A DNA stretch of 64,000 nucleotides from Mytilus galloprovincialis. Its lineage: Eukaryota > Mollusca > Bivalvia > Mytilida > Mytilidae. Numbering within the stretch: position 1 is the first letter of the stretch; each line of letters opens with the position of its first letter. A program made the position numbers and the translations under genes. Where the stretch lies: NCBI RefSeq assembly GCF_965363235.1, contig NC_134841.1:60161078-60225077 (forward strand). Reading direction: 5' to 3'. The notes beneath the pieces are model-generated. The model had not been told where the DNA came from, did not search any database, and saw only the letters and a list, made by a program, of their open reading frames with translations. Of this stretch, positions 2,931-60,538 are shown piece by piece.

Positions 2931-4705
2931 GGGAAGACCGTTGGCTTTGCACATTGATGCTGCAACAAGGTTATCGAATAGAATATTGTGCAGCTGCGGA
3001 AGCAGTCACATTTGCACCTGAGGAGTTTCGAGAATTTTTCAATCAAAGGCGAAGATGGATGCCATCAACAATGGCAAATATTTTGGATCTTCTAATAAGT
3101 TACAAGCGTACAACAAGAAACAATTCAAATATCTCCTATCTTTATATTTTCTATCAATGGATTTTGTTTCTGTCGTCTATTCTTGGGCCATCTCTTGTAT
3201 TACTGGCAATGCGGTCTGCTATTAGTTCCGTTTTTAAGGATAGTGTTAGTCCATGGGTTGCTTACCTTCTGATTTATGGTCCTACTTTAGTTTTTATTTT
3301 CATTTGCCTAAAATGTAAAACACAGACACAGTTGACAGTTGCAATGGCTCTAAGTGCAATTTACGCAATGTTTATGATGGCAGTTTTAGTTGGAACCATT
3401 GTTAACATAGCAGAAGAGGGAATCTTTACGCCAACTGCTGTTTTCATGTACGTTCTTATTGGAATCTTCCTAATAGCTGGTCTTTTTCATCCGCACGAAT
3501 TGACAGATTTATTCTGGGGACTTTTGTACTTCGTGTGCATACCATCCGGATATTTATTTTTAATTGTTTATGCAATATGTAATCTAAACAATGTATCTTG
3601 GGGGACACGAGAAACACAAACGGCGGTTCTCGAGCAGCAGTTTGATGGAAAGCAACGGCGAAAAAAGAAAACAGAGGAAGAATTTGGAGTTGTCTCTGAA
3701 GATATTCTTGATGATATTCTAAAGCAAATAAAGACAACAAAAGTTAAAAATGCTTCGTATACAGATCTGATTCCATCGTACTTTCAATGGCATAATAATC
3801 TTGTACTTTTACGATCTTTAGAAAGCGTGCAGAACATTGTTAAACATACTGAATCGACAGTACCTGATGATGGTTCTGATCTACGACAAACAAGAAGAAA
3901 AAGAGTAAGCCTTGCACAAACAATCAAAGACAAACCAGATTCGGAATCTGTAGATGATACATCCTGGGCTGAAGATCACGGTCAAACTAAAGAATTACAG
4001 GATGACGAGAAATTATTTTGGAAGGACCTTATCCTGAATTATCTGAAACCAATAGATTCGGATAAAAAGAGAGAAAAAGAAATAGCTCGAAGTCTTAAAG
4101 AGTATCGAGATAAAGTAGCTTTTGCATTTTTCTTTGTAAATGCATTGTGGGTTGTCGTTATGTCTGCAATGAATGAGGTAAAAGGTCAGTTGAACATAAA
4201 AATTCCAGCAATTGGTAGTAACACAGTCATTGAGCCACTTGGACTTATGTTTTTATCAATATTTGCCCTTCTTCTCTTTATGCAGTTTATTGGTATGATT
4301 CGACATCGATATGGCACACTCCTTCATGTTTTGTCAGCAACAACTCTGAGACAAACTCAGGGAAACCCTGAATCAATAATCAACCGAATAAAAGATATTT
4401 CTTCCATATCGCCGGCCAGTGAGCCAGAATTTGTCACCACCAAATTGAATCACGTAGGCGAAAGTGGTGCTTCGGATACGTCAACAGTTGACATGGAAGA
4501 AATCGACCAAATTTACGAGAACATCTATGACTTAAGGTCGAAGAAGAAAAATGAGCTTGGGAAATCAGTAAAAAGACCTACAGCTCATCTTTCCAATATG
4601 CCATTTGATCTGAAAAAGACATTTCGTACAAATGTTAAGACTATGAAACGACAACATAAGGGCAATAAAAGGTATAAGCAAAAAACAACTGAAAACAAAG
4701 TTTAG
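2931..4705 (+). CDS. Chitin synthase, C-terminal exon
   Basis: This is the last coding exon of a family-2 glycosyltransferase that polymerises UDP-GlcNAc into chitin at the plasma membrane. A polypyrimidine tract and AG at 2929-2930 form the acceptor. The exon opens with two bases of a split codon and then EDRWLCTL at 2933, so the first in-frame ATG is not a start. QRRRW lies at 3044-3058; EDRW and QRRRW are the catalytic and product-binding signatures of the family. Five membrane helices follow (about 3128-3585), then SWGTRE at 3596-3613, a charged lysine-rich cytosolic stretch, two more helices (about 4120-4320) and a basic tail. This order matches animal chitin synthases. Upstream exons with the rest of the catalytic domain (and, in many bivalves, a myosin head) must lie left of the window. 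The exon is intact, ends in TAG, and has no frameshift. Confidence 0.93.
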
Positions 4706-12762: not shown

Positions 12763-13221
12763 TGGGGATTGTGACGTCATGCAAACATAATGGCTGCTTA
12801 AAAATTCGCTCATCTGATTCGGATAGAAGTTTACCAAATTTGGAAGCATATTCATGAATCAAAGTTTTTCAACTATCTTCATACAGAACAAAAACCAATT
12901 GCAAGACTTTAGTTCAATTTCAGGAACTTTCCAAAAGTGTATTTAAACTTTATTCAAAGCGAATATCAACCGAATCAACGTTTACCGTCACGGAAATACA
13001 GATCTGGACATATCAGACAAATTTACAAGTTGTAAAACTGGATACAAAGTTAACGGTATGAACATTAATACTAATTCAAACATTAATTAAAACTAAAACA
13101 TAATTATAACTATGAAATTCTTTATTTGTTTTTCATAACAATGTCCTACTCGTCATAGTGCAAAATTCCGCGAAAAAGACGTCAACGTTTTCGCAACCTA
13201 TAGGTCTATAAACATTGAAAA

Positions 13222-15105
13222 ATGGATGTATACATTGACGGTGCATGTAAAAATAACGGAAAGCCGTCAGCAAAGGCAAGCTTTGGAATACTCTGGGAGA
13301 AAAATAGTACAAGAAATAGTTCTGGTCTAGTTCCAGAAACATACAAGCAAACCAATAATACTGGAGAATTATTTGCTGCAGTTAAATGCCTGCAACAAGT
13401 TCATCAACTTAATATAGTTAATATTCAAATAAAAACTGATAGCGAATATTTGGTAAGGGGGATCACCAGCGATATTACATACTGGAAAAACAACAACTGG
13501 AAGCTCAAGTCCTCCGGAAAGGATGTAAAAAACAAAGAATTATGGTCAGAGATTGACAATTTGTCAACAAATTTAAATGTATCTTGGGTATATGTTCCGC
13601 GAGATTCTGAAAGTGAACAAATCGAGGCCGACAAACTTGCAAAAAATGCACTAAATATTAAAACAGTATCCACTAACATAATGCAAAGTCAACAACAAAT
13701 CACAATTCATACAATTGATGAAAGTGAATGTAGTGATAATGATGATGAAACAATTCCGATGAAACTAGTTACCCCACGCCGGAGTACTACAATTCAAAAA
13801 GCAAAGAAAATTAGCAACAAAACCAGCTCGCCATCATTTGGTGTTATTTCCGCATTAAGAAGAATTGAAGGTTTACTTCTATCTACATCTGAAGATGTCT
13901 CAAATTTAAACGACACTGTAAACTGTCACATTGACACTTCAAATAAACAATTTCAAGATATCAATGATAAATTTGTTTCCTTGGCAAACACAGTAAAAGT
14001 GCAAACTAGTTCAACATCAGCCTCTGTTGAAGAAGTGTTAGAACAAACCCAGATCATAAAAGCGGACATTAACTCTAATAACAAAACGTTCGTTGACAAA
14101 TCTAAGAGTTTATGGGATAAACTTAACTCATTATTCCAAGAAGTTAAATCATTAAAGGCATCAAACGAAAATATCGCTATGCAAGAACAAGTTGCCCAAA
14201 TACATACCAGTACCCCAAACAGCAAAAGAGAAAAAAATAATTTAACCTCAACAAAAATGACACCTGGAACATACAGTAATGCAGTAAAAAGTGGATTACA
14301 GTATAGAACAAGCCAATCAACTACTCCAAACACATCAGAACCGTTTTTGAGACAAAGGGGTGAACAAATACCAAACGTTCAGTATCATGTGACAGAATTG
14401 GAACGTCCCAAATATCCATTATTTGAGAAAAACAGTAACAAGAAAAACTTATTTCTAATAGGAAGTTCTACACTAAAACGAATGTCGGCCAGAAAAATGA
14501 CAACAAATAGCATCACAACAAAAGTAAAGACTATCCGTGGAGGAAGAATAAGGGATATTGAGAATTGCCTTATAGAGCATATATCTGATGGCAAACTCGA
14601 CTGTGTTGATGTCATAGCTGTGCATGTTGGAACCAACAATGTGTCTGATAGAGATACTGTTCGTACTATAATAAATGATTATAAAAATCTTATTCACACG
14701 GTAAAACAGAGCTTACCGGAAACGCAAATAATTATTTCATCAATTCTACCAAGGCCTTCAGATTACAAGTCAAACCATATTATTTCTGAAGTAAACCAGC
14801 AGTTACTAACAGTTGAAGATAATCAAGTGAAAATACTAGATAACACGTTAGACTTTTTGTACGGCAATCGTCCTAATCAATTGCTTTTTCAGGACTATGT
14901 ACATACCAACGTAGACGGTGCTAAAGTTCTAAGCCATAACATTATTTCTTGTGTTAACACAATGCTTAGATTGTACGATTCAAATTCACAATTTGAACAA
15001 AATTTTTATTCGGAGAGGATACCAGGGAGGAGATATGCGCCATTAGAGACAACCAATCAAGATTATCAACATCCACATTCATTTCGTCCAAACGTCTGGA
15101 ATTAG
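13222..15105 (+). CDS. LINE ORF1: RNase H - coiled coil - SGNH esterase
   Basis: 627 residues, start ATG at 13222 in an AAAATGG context. Residues 1-145 are an RNase H1-type domain: DGACKNNG with D6, TGELFAA with E49, TDSEY with D73, and EADKLAKNA with D137, which is the full DEDD set. The usual loop histidine is not present; the loop reads VPRDSESEQ. Residues about 150-225 are Ser/Thr/Asn-rich. Residues about 225-335 form a coiled coil, likely for trimerisation as in other LINE ORF1 proteins. Residues 408-590 are an SGNH hydrolase: GSS at 414-416 (nucleophile Ser), GTNN at 470-473, DYVH at 558-561. Esterase and coiled coil are known for CR1/L2 ORF1; a functional-looking RNase H in ORF1 is unusual. 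The last 105 bases overlap the ORF2 frame. Confidence 0.92.
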   Translation: MDVYIDGACKNNGKPSAKASFGILWEKNSTRNSSGLVPETYKQTNNTGELFAAVKCLQQVHQLNIVNIQIKTDSEYLVRGITSDITYWKNNNWKLKSSGKDVKNKELWSEIDNLSTNLNVSWVYVPRDSESEQIEADKLAKNALNIKTVSTNIMQSQQQITIHTIDESECSDNDDETIPMKLVTPRRSTTIQKAKKISNKTSSPSFGVISALRRIEGLLLSTSEDVSNLNDTVNCHIDTSNKQFQDINDKFVSLANTVKVQTSSTSASVEEVLEQTQIIKADINSNNKTFVDKSKSLWDKLNSLFQEVKSLKASNENIAMQEQVAQIHTSTPNSKREKNNLTSTKMTPGTYSNAVKSGLQYRTSQSTTPNTSEPFLRQRGEQIPNVQYHVTELERPKYPLFEKNSNKKNLFLIGSSTLKRMSARKMTTNSITTKVKTIRGGRIRDIENCLIEHISDGKLDCVDVIAVHVGTNNVSDRDTVRTIINDYKNLIHTVKQSLPETQIIISSILPRPSDYKSNHIISEVNQQLLTVEDNQVKILDNTLDFLYGNRPNQLLFQDYVHTNVDGAKVLSHNIISCVNTMLRLYDSNSQFEQNFYSERIPGRRYAPLETTNQDYQHPHSFRPNVWN

Positions 15106-18101
15106 AAGAAACTTTTGAATTCTGCTCAAGTCAAGCACACGATTGTATTTTATATCATTCTATAGTTATTCTCATTGTATATGTTTGTATTGCTATTTTT
15201 CTTCTTGAGCAAAATTCAGAATGCTCCAAGTATACCCAGATCAATCCTTTTATATTCCCACACAAATCCCTTAACATCTGTCACTTAAATATAAACCATG
15301 TTTTACCAAAATTTGCCGAAATACAATACTTAATTTCGGATTCAAAATCAAACACGCATATTTTATGTTTGAGTGAAACATTTTTGTCAAGTAGTGTCAA
15401 AAATAAAGAGATCAATATTCTAGGGTACAATTTACATAGAAAAGACAGAATAGATAAATCTGGGGGTGGGCTTTTACTTTATACTTCAAAACAAATAAAT
15501 ACGTTTAGAAGGATCGATTTGGAAATGCAAGAAATTGAGTCAATGTGGATAGAAGTTATTAATATTCATCAAAAGCCTATTTTACTAGGTTATGTATATA
15601 GACCACCTAACAGTAATGCTGACTGGGTTACTAAGTTTGAAACCATGATGTTAAAAGTTGACACTGAAGAAAAGGAAACTATTATTATGGGAGATTTTAA
15701 TATTGATATAATGTCAAGTAAAAAACATGCTAAGTGGTCACACATCAAAAATATTTTCAACATGAGTCAAATGGTTACAGAACCTACCAGAGTAACTAAA
15801 ACTTCATCTACTTTAATTGACCATGTGTATTGTAATCTGCCAGAAAATATTAATTATATTGCAGTTCCAAAATATTCAATTAGTGATCACTATCCAGTAT
15901 GTATTTCTCATAAAAGAGGGTTCAAAACGAAAAAGCAAATTCATGATTATATAACTTATAGATCTACAAAATATTTTAACGAGACTGATTTTATTCACCA
16001 TTTATCTCAGTGTCCCTTTGACAGTATACTAGAAATTGATGATCCTGATGAAGCGCTACTAAGTTTTATAAATATTTTTACTGAAGTGTTAAATCATCAT
16101 GCTCCTCTCATTAAAAAGCGAGTTAAACATGTTTATCAAAATCAGTGGATAAATGATGAAATTAAGGAGGGCATGAAAAAACGTGATTATTATCATAAGA
16201 AAAAAGACACATATAACTATAAATTTTGGAGAAATAAGGTTAAATACCTCATAGAAAATTCAAAACAAAATTTTTATACTGAAGTATTAGAACAAGAAAA
16301 AGGAAATAGTAGCAAATTATGGAAACACTTGCATAATGTAAATGGTAGTGAAAATCATCATAACCATGCAATCTTAAATGACTGTAGTAATAAACCAATT
16401 ACAGACCCTAAAAGCATTGCTGATACTTTCAATAATTATTTTACAAATATTACTGAAAATGTTAATCTTAATTCAAACTCAAGCACCAGTTGTTCTGGAA
16501 AACTTGATAATTATATTTCATGTCGTGTACCAGAAAATGTCTTTTTTACCATACCACAAATAACTAATGAATTTGTTCTCCATCAATTAATCACACTTGA
16601 TGAGAAAAAAGCAACAGGTCTTGATAATATCAGTGCAAAGTTTTTAAAAATGTCATCACACCTAATTTCAGTTCCATTATGCCACATTTTTAATTTAAGC
16701 ATAAGAAAATCAGTGTACCCATCGTTATTCAAACTGGCTAAAGTTCTACCAGTTTTTAAAAATAAAGGTTCAAAAAATGATGTTTTTAATTACAGACCTA
16801 TTGCAATTTTACCATTACTATCTAAGATCCTTGAGCGACACGTAAAAACTCATTTCATGAATTTTCTAAACAAATATAATCTATTGTATGTCATGCAATC
16901 AGGCTTTCGTGCAAACCATTCCTGTCAAACTGCTATGACTTCTTTGTTAGACAAATGGTTAAAAGCCGTTGATGAAGGAAATTTAGTAGGGGCAGTATTT
17001 TTAGATCTATGTAAAGCTTTTGATCTTCTAAATCACAAACTGCTCCTTCAAAAATTACAAAAATATAAATGTTCTTATAATTCAATTCATTGGTTTACTT
17101 CGTATTTAGCTGATAGACATCAAGTCGTATCAATTTCAAATACTTTTTCAGATGTATCTACATTAAAAGCAGGTGTACCTCAAGGGTCCGTTTTAGGTCC
17201 TATATTATTTTTAATATTTATTAATGATTTGCCTTTGTGTAATCCTAATCATAATCTTGATCTTTTTGCTGATGATAGCACTATTTCTGTAATTGGAAAA
17301 GACAAAAGGTATATAAGTCAGACACTCAATGTTGTATTAGAAAATATTTGTCAATGGGTTGATGAAAACAAAATGTTAGTTAATGTGTCAAAAACTAAGA
17401 CAATGTGTATAGGTTCAAAACAAAAACTGTCTGTAATGTGTAATGACACATTAAATGTATCCATTAATGGCCAAAAGATTAATGAAAGTCACTGTGAAAA
17501 AGTCCTGGGTATTTTTGTTGACAAAACTCTTTCTTGGTATGATCAAATTAATCATATAATCAAAAAAGTTAATTCTTCATTAGCTTTATTAAAAAGAATC
17601 AAGAAATACTTGAATCACAATGCACGAATTCTATTTTACAATGCGTATATTCTTCCACATTTGGATTACTGTTGTTCAGTATGGGGAAACTGTAACAAGT
17701 TTTTAGTTGACAGTCTACTAAAATTGCAAAAAAGGGCAGCTAGAATTATTTTAAACGAACACGATATTCGAAAACCATCTATTGAACTATTTAAGAAATC
17801 TGGAATCATTCCTGTTACTAAGAGAATATTTTACCACAAATCATTATTAATGTATAAATCAAAACACCAACTGGCACCAAAATATTTATCCAATCTTATT
17901 GTGCCTACAAGTAGTAAACAATCGTACAATACTCGACTTTCATCATCGGATAATTTTATTGTCCCTAAATCAAATACAGAATTATACAAATCAAGTTTTT
18001 CTTTTAGTGGTCCAAAAGTGTGGAATTCACTGTCCAGTGAAATTAAAAAATCAAAAAGTATATCTGCATTCAAAAACTCTTACAAGTCATTTTATTTTTA
18101 A
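14997..18101 (+). CDS. LINE ORF2: APE endonuclease and reverse transcriptase
   Basis: The -1 frame relative to ORF1 is open from after TGA 14994-14996 to the stop at 18099-18101. No ATG occurs before about 15525, which is already inside the endonuclease, so ORF2 is probably made by frameshifting at 15000-15006. The endonuclease starts near 15267 (SLNICHLNIN), with LSETF at 15369, GDFN at 15690 and SDHYP at 15882. These are the metal-binding and catalytic motifs of APE-type LINE endonucleases. RT follows: NYRPIAILP near 16790, FLDLCKAFD near 17000, PQGSVLGP near 17178 and the catalytic FADD at 17265-17276. The C-terminal region (LDYCCSVWG, AARIIL, GPKVWNSL) is the usual CR1-like thumb and tail. 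There is no RNase H after RT. The enzyme nicks the target and primes cDNA synthesis from it. Confidence 0.92.
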   Translation, partial: TKFLFGEDTREEICAIRDNQSRLSTSTFISSKRLELEETFEFCSSQAHDCILYHSIVILIVYVCIAIFLLEQNSECSKYTQINPFIFPHKSLNICHLNINHVLPKFAEIQYLISDSKSNTHILCLSETFLSSSVKNKEINILGYNLHRKDRIDKSGGGLLLYTSKQINTFRRIDLEMQEIESMWIEVINIHQKPILLGYVYRPPNSNADWVTKFETMMLKVDTEEKETIIMGDFNIDIMSSKKHAKWSHIKNIFNMSQMVTEPTRVTKTSSTLIDHVYCNLPENINYIAVPKYSISDHYPVCISHKRGFKTKKQIHDYITYRSTKYFNETDFIHHLSQCPFDSILEIDDPDEALLSFINIFTEVLNHHAPLIKKRVKHVYQNQWINDEIKEGMKKRDYYHKKKDTYNYKFWRNKVKYLIENSKQNFYTEVLEQEKGNSSKLWKHLHNVNGSENHHNHAILNDCSNKPITDPKSIADTFNNYFTNITENVNLNSNSSTSCSGKLDNYISCRVPENVFFTIPQITNEFVLHQLITLDEKKATGLDNISAKFLKMSSHLISVPLCHIFNLSIRKSVYPSLFKLAKVLPVFKNKGSKNDVFNYRPIAILPLLSKILERHVKTHFMNFLNKYNLLYVMQSGFRANHSCQTAMTSLLDKWLKAVDEGNLVGAVFLDLCKAFDLLNHKLLLQKLQKYKCSYNSIHWFTSYLADRHQVVSISNTFSDVSTLKAGVPQGSVLGPILFLIFINDLPLCNPNHNLDLFADDSTISVIGKDKRYISQTLNVVLENICQWVDENKMLVNVSKTKTMCIGSKQKLSVMCNDTLNVSINGQKINESHCEKVLGIFVDKTLSWYDQINHIIKKVNSSLALLKRIKKYLNHNARILFYNAYILPHLDYCCSVWGNCNKFLVDSLLKLQKRAARIILNEHDIRKPSIELFKKSGIIPVTKRIFYHKSLLMYKSKHQLAPKYLSNLIVPTSSKQSYNTRLSSSDNFIVPKSNTELYKSSFSFSGPKVWNSLSSEIKKSKSISAFKNSYKSFYF
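15000..15006 (+). promoter_or_regulatory. Candidate -1 ribosomal frameshift site
   Basis: AAATTTT read in ORF1 codons is A AAT TTT, an X XXY YYZ heptamer. It lies three bases after the -1-frame stop at 14994-14996, the earliest place where slippage could enter the ORF2 frame. A purine-rich GGAGAGGATACCAGGGAGG segment begins five bases downstream. I did not find a definite pseudoknot by eye. Confidence 0.5.
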
Positions 18102-18340
18102 AAGTGTTGAATTTATAAATTAAGCCACAATGTATACCATAGTTGTTTTTTTTGTTGTTGTTATATTACTTTATATACGTCTATTGTTTACATGTGTGTA
18201 ACAGTAGATTAATTATTTTTTATTTTTTATTCATATTGTTAACATTGTATGCAAGTAGAGAGCCTTATTGAAAATTGGTTTAATCCAAATGAGTCACTCT
18301 CTTTAAATAAAGATATTATTATTATTATTATTATTATTAT

Positions 18341-40840: not shown

Positions 40841-42113
40841 ATAATAATAATAATAATAATAATATCTTTATTTAGAGAGAGTAACTCATTTGGATTACAC
40901 CAATTTTCAATAAGGCTCTCTTAATACAATAATAATTACATTACAAATAAACAATGCATCAATAATAATGGTAAATAAAAATTATGTACAATTTAAAATA
41001 CAATAAACAATTATGATATGGCATTACAGTAAAAATATGATGGTAATGTTAAAAGTACATAGATTTGTATTTATGTTTAAATTCGGATACTGTATTTGAT
41101 TTTTTTTATTGAATTAGGAAGAGCATTCCACACTTTTGGTCCATTGTACGAGAAACTAGACTTATACAACTCTGTATTTGGTTTTGGAATAATAAAATTA
41201 TCTGAGGATGAAAATCTCGTATTATATTTTTGGTTTGCAGAAGCTGATACAATAAGACTGGACATATATTCTGGAGCTAAGCCATGTTTTGCCTTATACA
41301 TTAGTAATGATTTGTGATAAAGTATTCTTTGTGTGATTGGCACAATGTTACATTCGTGAAATAATTCTCTTGAAGGTTTGGTGTAATCATGTTCGTCTAA
41401 AATTATTCTTGCTGCCCTTTTTGCAGTTTTAGTAAACTATCTAATAGAAAGTTATTACAGTTTCCCCATATTGAACAACAATAATCTAAGTGAGGTAAAA
41501 CGTAAGCGTTATAGTACATTTGTCTAGCTTTATGATTTAGATATTTCTTTATCCTTTTTAGTAAAGCTAAAGAAGAGTTAACTTTTTTGATAATATAATC
41601 GATATGAGAAGACCAAGATAGAGATGCATCAATAAAAACATCTAGAACTTTTTCACATGTACTTTCTATAATTTGTTGTCCATTTAAAGCAAGATTAATG
41701 TTTTCATTTGATGTAACGGAAAGCTTTTGTTTAGATCCAATGCATATAGCTTTCGTTTTAGATACATTTACAGCCATTTTATTGTCATCACACCAGCGAA
41801 AAATATCTCGTAAAACCGTATTAAGTGTTTGACTGATGCAACTTTTGTTTTGTCCAATGACTGATATGGTGCTATCATCAGCAAATAAATCGGTGTTATG
41901 ATTAGGATTAGACAAAGGAAGATCATTAATAAAAATTAAAAACAACACCGGTCCTAATACGGATCCTTGAGGTACACCCGTTTTTTGTTTTTGTACGTCT
42001 GAAAATGTATTTGAAATAGATACTTTCTGATATCTGTCAGCCAAATATGATGTAAACCAACGTAATGAAGTATAAGCTAATTTGTATTTGTTTAATTTTT
42101 GAACGATTATCAC
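40841..42113 (-). pseudogene. 5'-truncated copy of the RNase H/esterase LINE
   Basis: Read on the minus strand it starts within RT (QKLNKYKLAYTSLRWFTSYL), keeps PQGSVLGPVLFLIFINDLP and FADDS, and ends with the same 3' untranslated block and (TTA)n tail as the full copy. One base is lost in an A-run at about 41419 (AAAAAGGGCAGC against AAAAAAGGGCAGC), shifting the frame after LLKLQK. The rest of the C-terminus (QRILYHKSLLMYKAKHGLAP) continues in another frame. The region before QKL was never copied. Confidence 0.9.
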
Positions 42114-58663: not shown

Positions 58664-60538
58664 ATGGCGGAATCAACATCGCCATTACCACCATCTAACA
58701 GAAATACAGAACGAGGTACAAACCACGACTCTGAGATAGACGACAGAGATATATTTGATACTCCTAGGGAGGAAATAGACGTTGGAAACAGTATTGAAAG
58801 AAATAAAAGAGATGATCAGACAAACGGGAATGACACTTCTCGTTCCAGAAATTCACAAATAAACGATAATGACACATCTCGTTCCAGAATTTCACAAATA
58901 AACGAGAACGACACATCTCGTTCCAGAAATTCACAAATAAACGGGAATGACATTTCTCGTTCCAGAAATTTACAAATAAACGAGAATGACACTTCTCGTT
59001 CCAGAAATTCGCAAATAAACGAGAATGAGACTTCTCAATCCAGAACTTCACAAATAAACGAGAATGACACTTCTCGTTCCAGAATTTCACAAATAAAGGA
59101 GAATGACACTTCTCGATCCAGAACTTCACAATCAAACGGGAATGACACTTCTCGTTCAGGAACTTCTCAAATAAACGGAAATGACACTTCACGTTCAGGA
59201 ACTTCTCAAATAAACGGAAATGACACTTCACGTTCCAGAAATTCACTAATAAATGAGAATGACATTTCTCCTTCAAGAAGTTCACCAACAAAACCACGGG
59301 TGATTGATTCTGAAACTAAATACACCGTTGGAGAAGACAATTCACACCCAAACAACTCTGAAAATTCAAATAAAGATGGAAAAAATAGTGTGAATTCAAA
59401 AAAGGAGACAAAGCGAAATAATTATTCAAAGGAAGAAATATTAAAAGGAGATAATACAACACGTTCAAACCAGAATAATAAAAAAGACGAAACTGGGAAA
59501 TCTCCAGATGGTGAGGACGAAAACGAAATCACGAATACCAAGAAGGTCGAAAAAGAAAATCAATCAGTTTCAGATGATGGAAACATAAATAATAACTCAA
59601 ACCACCCGACATTTTCCGAAATTCAAAAAGCAAACGATGACAGCTTAAAGAGTCCTTCACGAGAACCAATAACGAATAACAATGTTACTTCATCAGCCAG
59701 TGAAAAACATTCTGACAGTGATAGATATACAGACAGCGAGACAACAGGTGGCAAATCGTCATTAAGTGAACATACGCCAAGAAGCCAGACAAAAAAGTCA
59801 AAAAAGAAACCAAAACGTAGTTCGAAGTCTCCTAAACCTACAAAGTCAAAAAGTATTTTGAAGACTGAAGAATCAAAGCCGCATAAACCTCTAGCCTTCA
59901 TGTCTTCTTTATTGGAAGATGGAACTACTCCCCGTAATCCGACAAGAGACAGTGGGGATAGTACCGTTGTTTCATTGCCGGCAATAAACCGGCAAAATGT
60001 TATAAACAAGGTATACGTAGATGATACAGAGAAAATAGTTAACAAATATCCCAAACGAGACAAGGATTTCAAGTTAGAATTTGTATATGACCTAAGGCCA
60101 AAATATCCGTCTTGGTATGCACCTGAAAAAAGATTGAGTCGTCGAGAAGAAAAAGTCTTCAGCGATATGTCTGGCGTATATGCAGATTATAAACAACAGG
60201 ACGAACGCCATCTGTCGAAGACAAAGACAATGGACGATAGACTGAAAAAACTTGAGAAATTAAAGAGAGAGGAAATCAAAGAGAAAAAAAGAAAGAAATT
60301 AGAAGCTGCTTATGAACAATATGAACAATTAAAAGACGTTCGCGAAAAATTCGATATTATGTGTTGGTATCGTAATCATACGCAATATATTACTCCGAGA
60401 GTTTTAGAACATGAAAAATTGAGTCGACATGTCTATGGACTTCCAGAATCTTTAAAAGAACAACAAAAATTGATAAAAAATCTAAAACGCAAACCAAAGA
60501 AACGAACGAAGAATGGAAATCGAATTGACAGTCACTAA
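58664..60538 (+). CDS. Disordered protein with twelve 13-residue repeats
   Basis: The exon begins after a TTTTTACAG acceptor at 58630. ATG at 58664 follows an in-frame stop in the leader. The 624-residue frame ends in TAA. Residues 54-209 are twelve copies of NENDTSRSRNSQI (39 bp each), with conserved D/E-T-S-R-S-R spacing. Residues 210-440 are Asn/Ser/Lys/Asp-rich and low in hydrophobic residues, so intrinsically disordered, with a KKSKKKPKRSSKSPKPTKSK patch near 380. Residues about 445-624 differ: KYPKRDKDFKLEFVYDLRP, YPSWYAPEKRLSRREEKVF, then a long basic helix (KKLEKLKREEIKEKKRKKLE) and a KKRTKNGNR tail. No signal peptide or membrane helix. The repeats could be phosphorylation or mineral/polyanion-binding sites, but that is speculation. 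The C-terminal conserved-looking part is where homologs should be sought. Confidence 0.85.
   Translation: MAESTSPLPPSNRNTERGTNHDSEIDDRDIFDTPREEIDVGNSIERNKRDDQTNGNDTSRSRNSQINDNDTSRSRISQINENDTSRSRNSQINGNDISRSRNLQINENDTSRSRNSQINENETSQSRTSQINENDTSRSRISQIKENDTSRSRTSQSNGNDTSRSGTSQINGNDTSRSGTSQINGNDTSRSRNSLINENDISPSRSSPTKPRVIDSETKYTVGEDNSHPNNSENSNKDGKNSVNSKKETKRNNYSKEEILKGDNTTRSNQNNKKDETGKSPDGEDENEITNTKKVEKENQSVSDDGNINNNSNHPTFSEIQKANDDSLKSPSREPITNNNVTSSASEKHSDSDRYTDSETTGGKSSLSEHTPRSQTKKSKKKPKRSSKSPKPTKSKSILKTEESKPHKPLAFMSSLLEDGTTPRNPTRDSGDSTVVSLPAINRQNVINKVYVDDTEKIVNKYPKRDKDFKLEFVYDLRPKYPSWYAPEKRLSRREEKVFSDMSGVYADYKQQDERHLSKTKTMDDRLKKLEKLKREEIKEKKRKKLEAAYEQYEQLKDVREKFDIMCWYRNHTQYITPRVLEHEKLSRHVYGLPESLKEQQKLIKNLKRKPKKRTKNGNRIDSH

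Follow-up and report, generated by a model that had tools for sequence, protein, structure and literature searches.

Why would the ORF1 of a LINE begin with an RNase H domain, and what could such a domain do there? The question is raised by a 627-residue frame in a 64,000-nucleotide stretch of the Mytilus galloprovincialis genome (the window; NC_134841.1, positions 60,161,078 to 60,225,077, forward strand). The first-pass annotation, made from the sequence alone, read this frame as the ORF1 of a LINE, opening with an RNase H and closing with an esterase, and the ORF2 that follows as lacking RNase H. Both readings held: the frame at 13222-15105 is unbroken, and a Pfam scan of ORF2 matched RVT_1 and Exo_endo_phos_2 and found no RNase H, including after the reverse transcriptase (Table 1). 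The element is a two-ORF LINE of the endonuclease-reverse transcriptase/esterase-ORF1 kind, and an N-terminal RNase H in ORF1 is an unusual position for such elements. The combination in ORF2 of an APE-type endonuclease and a reverse transcriptase, without RNase H, is a CR1/L2-type trait; the element may belong to the CR1/L2 group, as the esterase match would suggest. Our preferred explanation, to which we assign a probability of roughly two in three, is that the element captured an RNASEH1-like RNase H, kept it by selection and uses it at the RNA:cDNA hybrid, probably in part as an ORF1-ORF2 fusion.

The 5' boundary was placed where identity to a 99.6% identical copy (L002) begins and the flanks differ, and the 3' boundary where the match to three further copies (L070, L071, and L072) ends, an (ATT)n run preceding the end point at 18337-18340; inspection by eye showed no clear target-site duplication at the window copy. 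A hydrophobic, membrane-segment-like stretch (15144-15206) precedes the endonuclease and was also seen by eye in the other subfamily and in a related LINE (L075). Elsewhere in the window lie a 236-residue reverse transcriptase fragment similar by eye to the element's ORF2 (41403-42113, minus strand), a 583-residue frame presumably resembling part of a chitin synthase (2954-4705, plus strand), and a 624-residue frame with many degenerate 'NDTSRSR..SQIN' repeats (58664-60538, plus strand).

Table 1. Features of the LINE copy in the window (positions are those of the window)
Feature	Position	Strand	Basis or remark
Whole LINE copy, ~5.26 kb	13083..18340	+	Ends set by comparison with other copies
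ORF1 (627 aa), with RNase H, helix-rich middle part, and SGNH esterase	13222..15105	+	Unbroken frame
RNase H type 1 domain, residues 1-145	13222..13656	+	Pfam PF00075, human RNASEH1 match, copies
RNase H residues D6, E49, D73, D137	13237-13239; 13366-13368; 13438-13440; 13630-13632	+	
RNase H loop position D128	13603-13605	+	
Helix-rich region, possible coiled coil, residues 205-330	13834..14211	+	Periodicity; low-confidence AlphaFold helices
SGNH esterase, residues 406-585 (S416, N472, D558, H561)	14437..14976	+	4c1b; Lipase_GDSL_2
Candidate -1 slippery heptamer A AAT TTT, ORF1 register	15000..15006	+	Aligned codon in both subfamilies
Overlap of ORF1 end and open ORF2 frame (-1)	14997..15105	+	
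ORF2 open frame	14997..18101	+	Conserved endonuclease stretches precede the first in-frame ATG (15525)
Endonuclease match (Exo_endo_phos_2)	15588..15899	+	Conserved start of the region upstream, from ~15234
Reverse transcriptase (RVT_1)	16773..17447	+	1.2e-26

The identity of the N-terminal domain was established by profile and residue evidence. Residues 2-144 of ORF1 matched the Pfam RNase_H family (PF00075) at 2.2e-26 (93.1 bits; cut-off, 25.8), and the best solved relative in a PDB search was human RNASEH1 (3.9e-22). The four acidic residues first noticed for their RNase H1-type contexts, D6, E49, D73, and D137, align to the catalytic carboxylates of RNase H (D-E-D-D). This set is complete in all five intact ORF1 copies described below; over all pieces, D6 was kept in 18 of 19, E49 in 17 of 22, D73 in 18 of 22, and D137 in 14 of 17, with every departure sitting in a stop-bearing copy. 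A tryptophan-rich stretch (W88-K..W93), which we take to be the 'basic protrusion', is common to ORF1, RNASEH1, and bacterial rows and absent from ORF2 RNases H. The structural check proposed in the first-pass annotation gave a divided answer: a single-sequence AlphaFold model of residues 1-151 (mean pLDDT, 46) had a strand-helix order that fits RNase H, but a PDB fold search with this low-confidence model returned 14 matches (E up to 10), none below 0.001 and none an RNase H. The confidence for the whole ORF1, again from a single sequence, was 38.

The active-site loop histidine of the human and E. coli rows is replaced, as had been claimed. The position is D128 in the window copy; of the 18 pieces covering it, 17 have Asp and one has Asn, and both subfamilies have Asp, a change that may lower RNase H activity. 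The fold could have been kept mainly as a module for binding RNA or hybrid, with cleavage lowered by the histidine loss. The uniform Asp/Asn at the loop and the retained tryptophan-rich protrusion would suit such a role, as would the description of esterase-type ORF1 proteins, in passages of PMC3905857, as being without defined RNA-binding domains; binding alone, however, would not demand the four catalytic carboxylates, which the intact copies of both subfamilies have kept. Because these catalytic residues are kept under strong selection, we favor an enzymatic role and consider a purely binding one unlikely.

The C-terminal part of ORF1 is an SGNH esterase. Lipase_GDSL_2 matched residues 463-568 at 32.3 bits in the context of the whole protein (cut-off, 32.9) and at 34.8 bits, above the cut-off, when the C-terminal part was scanned alone. 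The best solved relative was the ORF1 esterase of ZfL2-1 (4c1b; 5.1e-11), alignment to which showed SGNH blocks with the catalytic Ser, Gly, Asn, and His, and S416, G440, G441, N472, D558, and H561 were invariant in a four-row alignment. The coiled coil that had been reported between the two domains is plausible: a hydrophobic periodicity of 3.5 residues over 205-262 beat shuffled sequences (fraction, 0.0035), but the other four stretches tried gave fractions of 0.025 to 0.15, and the AlphaFold helices in this middle region were of low confidence.

The first-pass annotation had named a one-off fusion confined to this copy as the outcome that would undo its reading, and the source genome (1.38 Gb in 331 contigs) showed otherwise. 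An ORF1 search gave at least 75 matching pieces; since 70 of 666 candidates were scored, the ORF1 copy counts are lower bounds. At least five copies span residue 1 to at least residue 615 without a stop, two in subfamily A (the window copy and C13:24210358, 99% identical) and three in subfamily B (C13:69915370, C1:74838004, and one on the small contig C289, counted here as a separate locus), which is 60% identical to A. With the RNase H domain alone (residues 1-145) as the query, 37 pieces were found: one exon of the host RNASEH1 gene, one 38% match, and 35 pieces that fall, by our own grouping, into 24 loci (23 of them aligned). RNase H in ORF1 is a trait of the family, shared by two old subfamilies. 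Among the individual copies, L072 (1037-1359) is 5'-incomplete, with 220 bp of the element's own sequence lying inverted next to the 5' end; inversions of this type resemble those from twin priming. At L011 (~2020-2131), a further element copy lies head to tail with L011, its 3' end directly upstream of the L011 5' end.

The RNase H is also the best-conserved part of ORF1 between the subfamilies. Comparison of A (window) with B (L007) gave identities of 76% for the RNase H, 68% for the esterase, and 49% for the linker, and dN values of 0.144, 0.199 (SGNH), and 0.419, respectively, with synonymous sites near saturation (pS of 0.75 to 0.82 over the three parts; 0.75 in the RNase H). The domain has been retained in the element by purifying selection for a long time, and because synonymous sites between A and B are saturated, the earlier proposal that it was 'newly' captured is wrong. 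The comparison also bears on whether the domain is a passive passenger without effect on the element. Over ORF1, the two recent A copies (window and L002) are separated by 2 synonymous and 9 nonsynonymous changes, with no constraint visible, as a passenger would predict; the RNase H dN between A and B, lower than that of the esterase at saturated synonymous sites, speaks against it, and we give this possibility very little credence.

The source of the domain is most likely a captured cellular RNASEH1-like sequence. When the human RNASEH1 domain was searched against the mussel genome (76 matches), the best 16 were all ORF1 RNases H (1.4e-24 to 4.5e-12). Next came the host RNASEH1 exon, with 51% identity across 45 residues; among ORF2 RNases H, the strongest match reached an E of 3.9e-5. 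The exons of the host RNASEH1 gene (G000:C1:86601101-86603879) are interrupted inside the RNase H domain. The ORF1 RNase H is 36% identical to human RNASEH1 and 41-43% to the partial host RNASEH1, as against 24-28% to ORF2 RNases H. Its identity to bacterial and phage rows is 29-37%, two of which (33-37%) are as near as human. In a 25-row tree, ORF1 formed a group with the human and the partial host RNASEH1 (92/91). Crystallised variants represent human and E. coli, and the outgroups are phage and plasmid RNases H (25-37% identical among those listed, 30 of 734 and 25 of 899 records). A 17-row tree, with two long rows and near-duplicates dropped (8 rows in all), gave the same grouping at 89/91, and neither node was starred.

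The grouping with cellular RNASEH1 is not decisive, as AU tests rejected neither a placement of ORF1 with ORF2 RNases H (p of 0.162 and 0.183) nor one with bacterial and phage RNases H (p of 0.178). These values are what would speak for a domain taken from the ORF2 of another LINE, an LTR element, a bacterium, or a phage rather than from animal RNASEH1. Against such a source stand the lower identity to ORF2 RNases H, their lack of the tryptophan-rich stretch, and the PDB search, in which retroviral RNases H reached only 0.0003 (an engineered fusion) to 0.5; we regard it as quite improbable. A scan of viral contigs with the RNase H alignment matched 63 stretches, of which none was confirmed. 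The first-pass annotation had left the choice between a domain moved from elsewhere in the element and a captured one. Capture is the likelier; a move from ORF2 is not favored, given the likeness to RNASEH1, although the AU tests permit it.

Related LINEs in the same genome suggest when the gain took place. Six loci with ORF2 42-44% identical were examined; ORF1 was readable well in L073 and L075 and only from mid-ORF1 onward in L077. All three resemble the window element in their ORF1 SGNH esterase and related ORF2. L073 and L075, in contrast, carry another N-terminal region in place of the RNase H, a different sequence with no RNase H match and with zinc-knuckle-like motifs below Pfam cut-offs. 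Since these two carry the esterase without the RNase H, the domain probably entered the element once the lineages had separated, although L073 and L075 may instead have lost it. The ORF junctions of these LINEs were of more than one type. ORF1 and ORF2 lie in one frame with a single TAG between them in L073 (3535-3537, plus strand) and a single TGA in L075 and L077 (minus strand), and they overlap in -1 in L074, the fourth readable junction. The one in-frame stop at three of four junctions suggests stop readthrough in the related LINEs.

Among the open-access papers listed, we found no report of an RNase H in a LINE ORF1, Repbase lying outside that scope, and passages of PMC5408684, PMC11203168, PMC5009743, PMC10294476, PMC6068448, PMC2881922, and PMC3905857 contained none. 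In the passages of PMC10294476, on bivalve transposons, 'RNase' occurs within RNAseq and 'esterase' is absent. The ORF1 domain table of Metcalfe and Casane 2014 (PMC4120745) covers 448 Jockey-superfamily elements and gives RNase H in none and the esterase type of ORF1 in vertebrate groups only.

How ORF2 is translated matters to the function of the RNase H, which a fusion of the two ORFs would place on the reverse transcriptase protein. In the window copy, the ORF2 frame has no in-frame ATG from 14997 up to 15525 (528 nt). The stretch 15234-15368, upstream of that first ATG, is nevertheless strongly coding (41 codons; pS of 0.86, pN of 0.08, A versus L008), so translation must enter upstream without an in-frame AUG; the motifs that we label HLNIN and ETF, presumably of the endonuclease, also lie upstream of this ATG. 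The ORF2 frame overlaps the end of ORF1 in -1. Within the overlap, an X XXY YYZ heptamer stands in the 0 frame (A AAT TTT, one codon into the open -1 frame), and AAATTTT occurs at the aligned place in subfamily B, the -1 frame opening there in both subfamilies. It was kept at 17 of 20 distinct covering places (3 of 5 A-type, 14 of 15 B-type), the three losses all falling in stop-bearing copies; the B-copy heptamers are not independent because these copies are near-identical. In-register heptamers are not rare in ORF1 (nine in A, eight in B, three of them aligned). In the -1 frame, the opening 16 codons of the overlap show conservation (56% identical; pN of 0.19), and synonymous differences drop in the last 29 aligned ORF1 codons, which overlap ORF2 (pS of 0.25, pN of 0.41; A versus L007). 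The excess of codon identity in the overlap was weak (9 of 11 versus 167 of 348; p of 0.026). In the 5'-incomplete copy L070, a difference of one base puts ORF1 and ORF2 in a single frame.

The -1 overlap, the shared in-register heptamer, and the lack of an ORF2 ATG together suggest that ORF1 and ORF2 may be fused by -1 frameshifting. An ORF2 that starts independently, whether from a non-AUG codon or through reinitiation once ORF1 has ended, and is never fused to ORF1 comes close to an even chance. A conserved downstream stimulator, either a stem or a two-layer G-quadruplex, was sought and found unsupported, a G-rich stretch 5 nt downstream of the heptamer having lost one GG pair in L017; the 42 codons of the ORF2 frame just past the ORF1 stop are poorly conserved (29% identical); and AUG-independent initiation is deemed likelier for mammalian LINE ORF2 in a review (PMC5009743). 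An independent start is harder to reconcile with the opening of the -1 frame at the heptamer in both subfamilies, the ATG-free 528 nt of the window copy, and the conservation of the first overlap codons in that frame.

Returning to the captured RNase H as an enzyme, we envisage the following course. In an ancestor of at least two present subfamilies, an RNase H type 1 domain would have come to form the start of ORF1, its most likely source being a cellular RNASEH1-like mRNA. The ORF1 protein would carry this RNase H to the RNA:cDNA hybrid of target-primed reverse transcription, where it would remove or loosen the template RNA. Part of the ORF1 protein would probably be made as an ORF1-ORF2 fusion by the candidate frameshift, which would join the RNase H and the reverse transcriptase in one polypeptide. 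A fuller scheme on a Gag-Pol-like plan, in which the -1 shift yields an RNase H-esterase-endonuclease-reverse transcriptase chain, the particle holds free ORF1 protein together with the reverse transcriptase-linked captured RNase H, and transposition is independent of host RNase H2, can be offered only tentatively, and we lean against it in this complete form.

Comparison with known systems shows what is shared and what is new. The domain is the one found in cellular RNase H1 (RNASEH1), with its D-E-D-D set and tryptophan-rich protrusion; it differs in the Asp at the loop histidine, in the start of ORF1 directly at the RNase H, and in the fused esterase. LINEs with an RNase H in ORF2, which we assume to be the I-type group, would be alike in supplying their own enzyme, whereas here it stands at the ORF1 N-terminus and the tree separates it from the ORF2 RNases H of this genome. 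The zebrafish L2-group element ZfL2-1 (PDB 4c1a and 4c1b) also has a related SGNH esterase after a helical region and an ORF2 with endonuclease and reverse transcriptase; its ORF1 protein, by contrast, is described in passages of PMC3905857 as a coiled coil and an esterase, without RNase H. LINEs without an RNase H, ZfL2-2 included, need host RNase H2, and LINE-1 is partly rescued by RNase H1 overexpression, according to passages of PMC6068448. An RNase H of its own at the hybrid would make the mussel element independent of the host RNase H2 that such LINEs need, all the more if it were joined to the reverse transcriptase.

A LINE with a cellular RNase H1 in its RNA-packaging protein would serve as a natural test of two questions: is LINE movement limited by RNase H, and does the RNase H have to lie next to the reverse transcriptase? 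The esterase-type ORF1 proteins, for whose RNA binding passages of PMC3905857 give no explanation, would also gain a nucleic-acid module from it.
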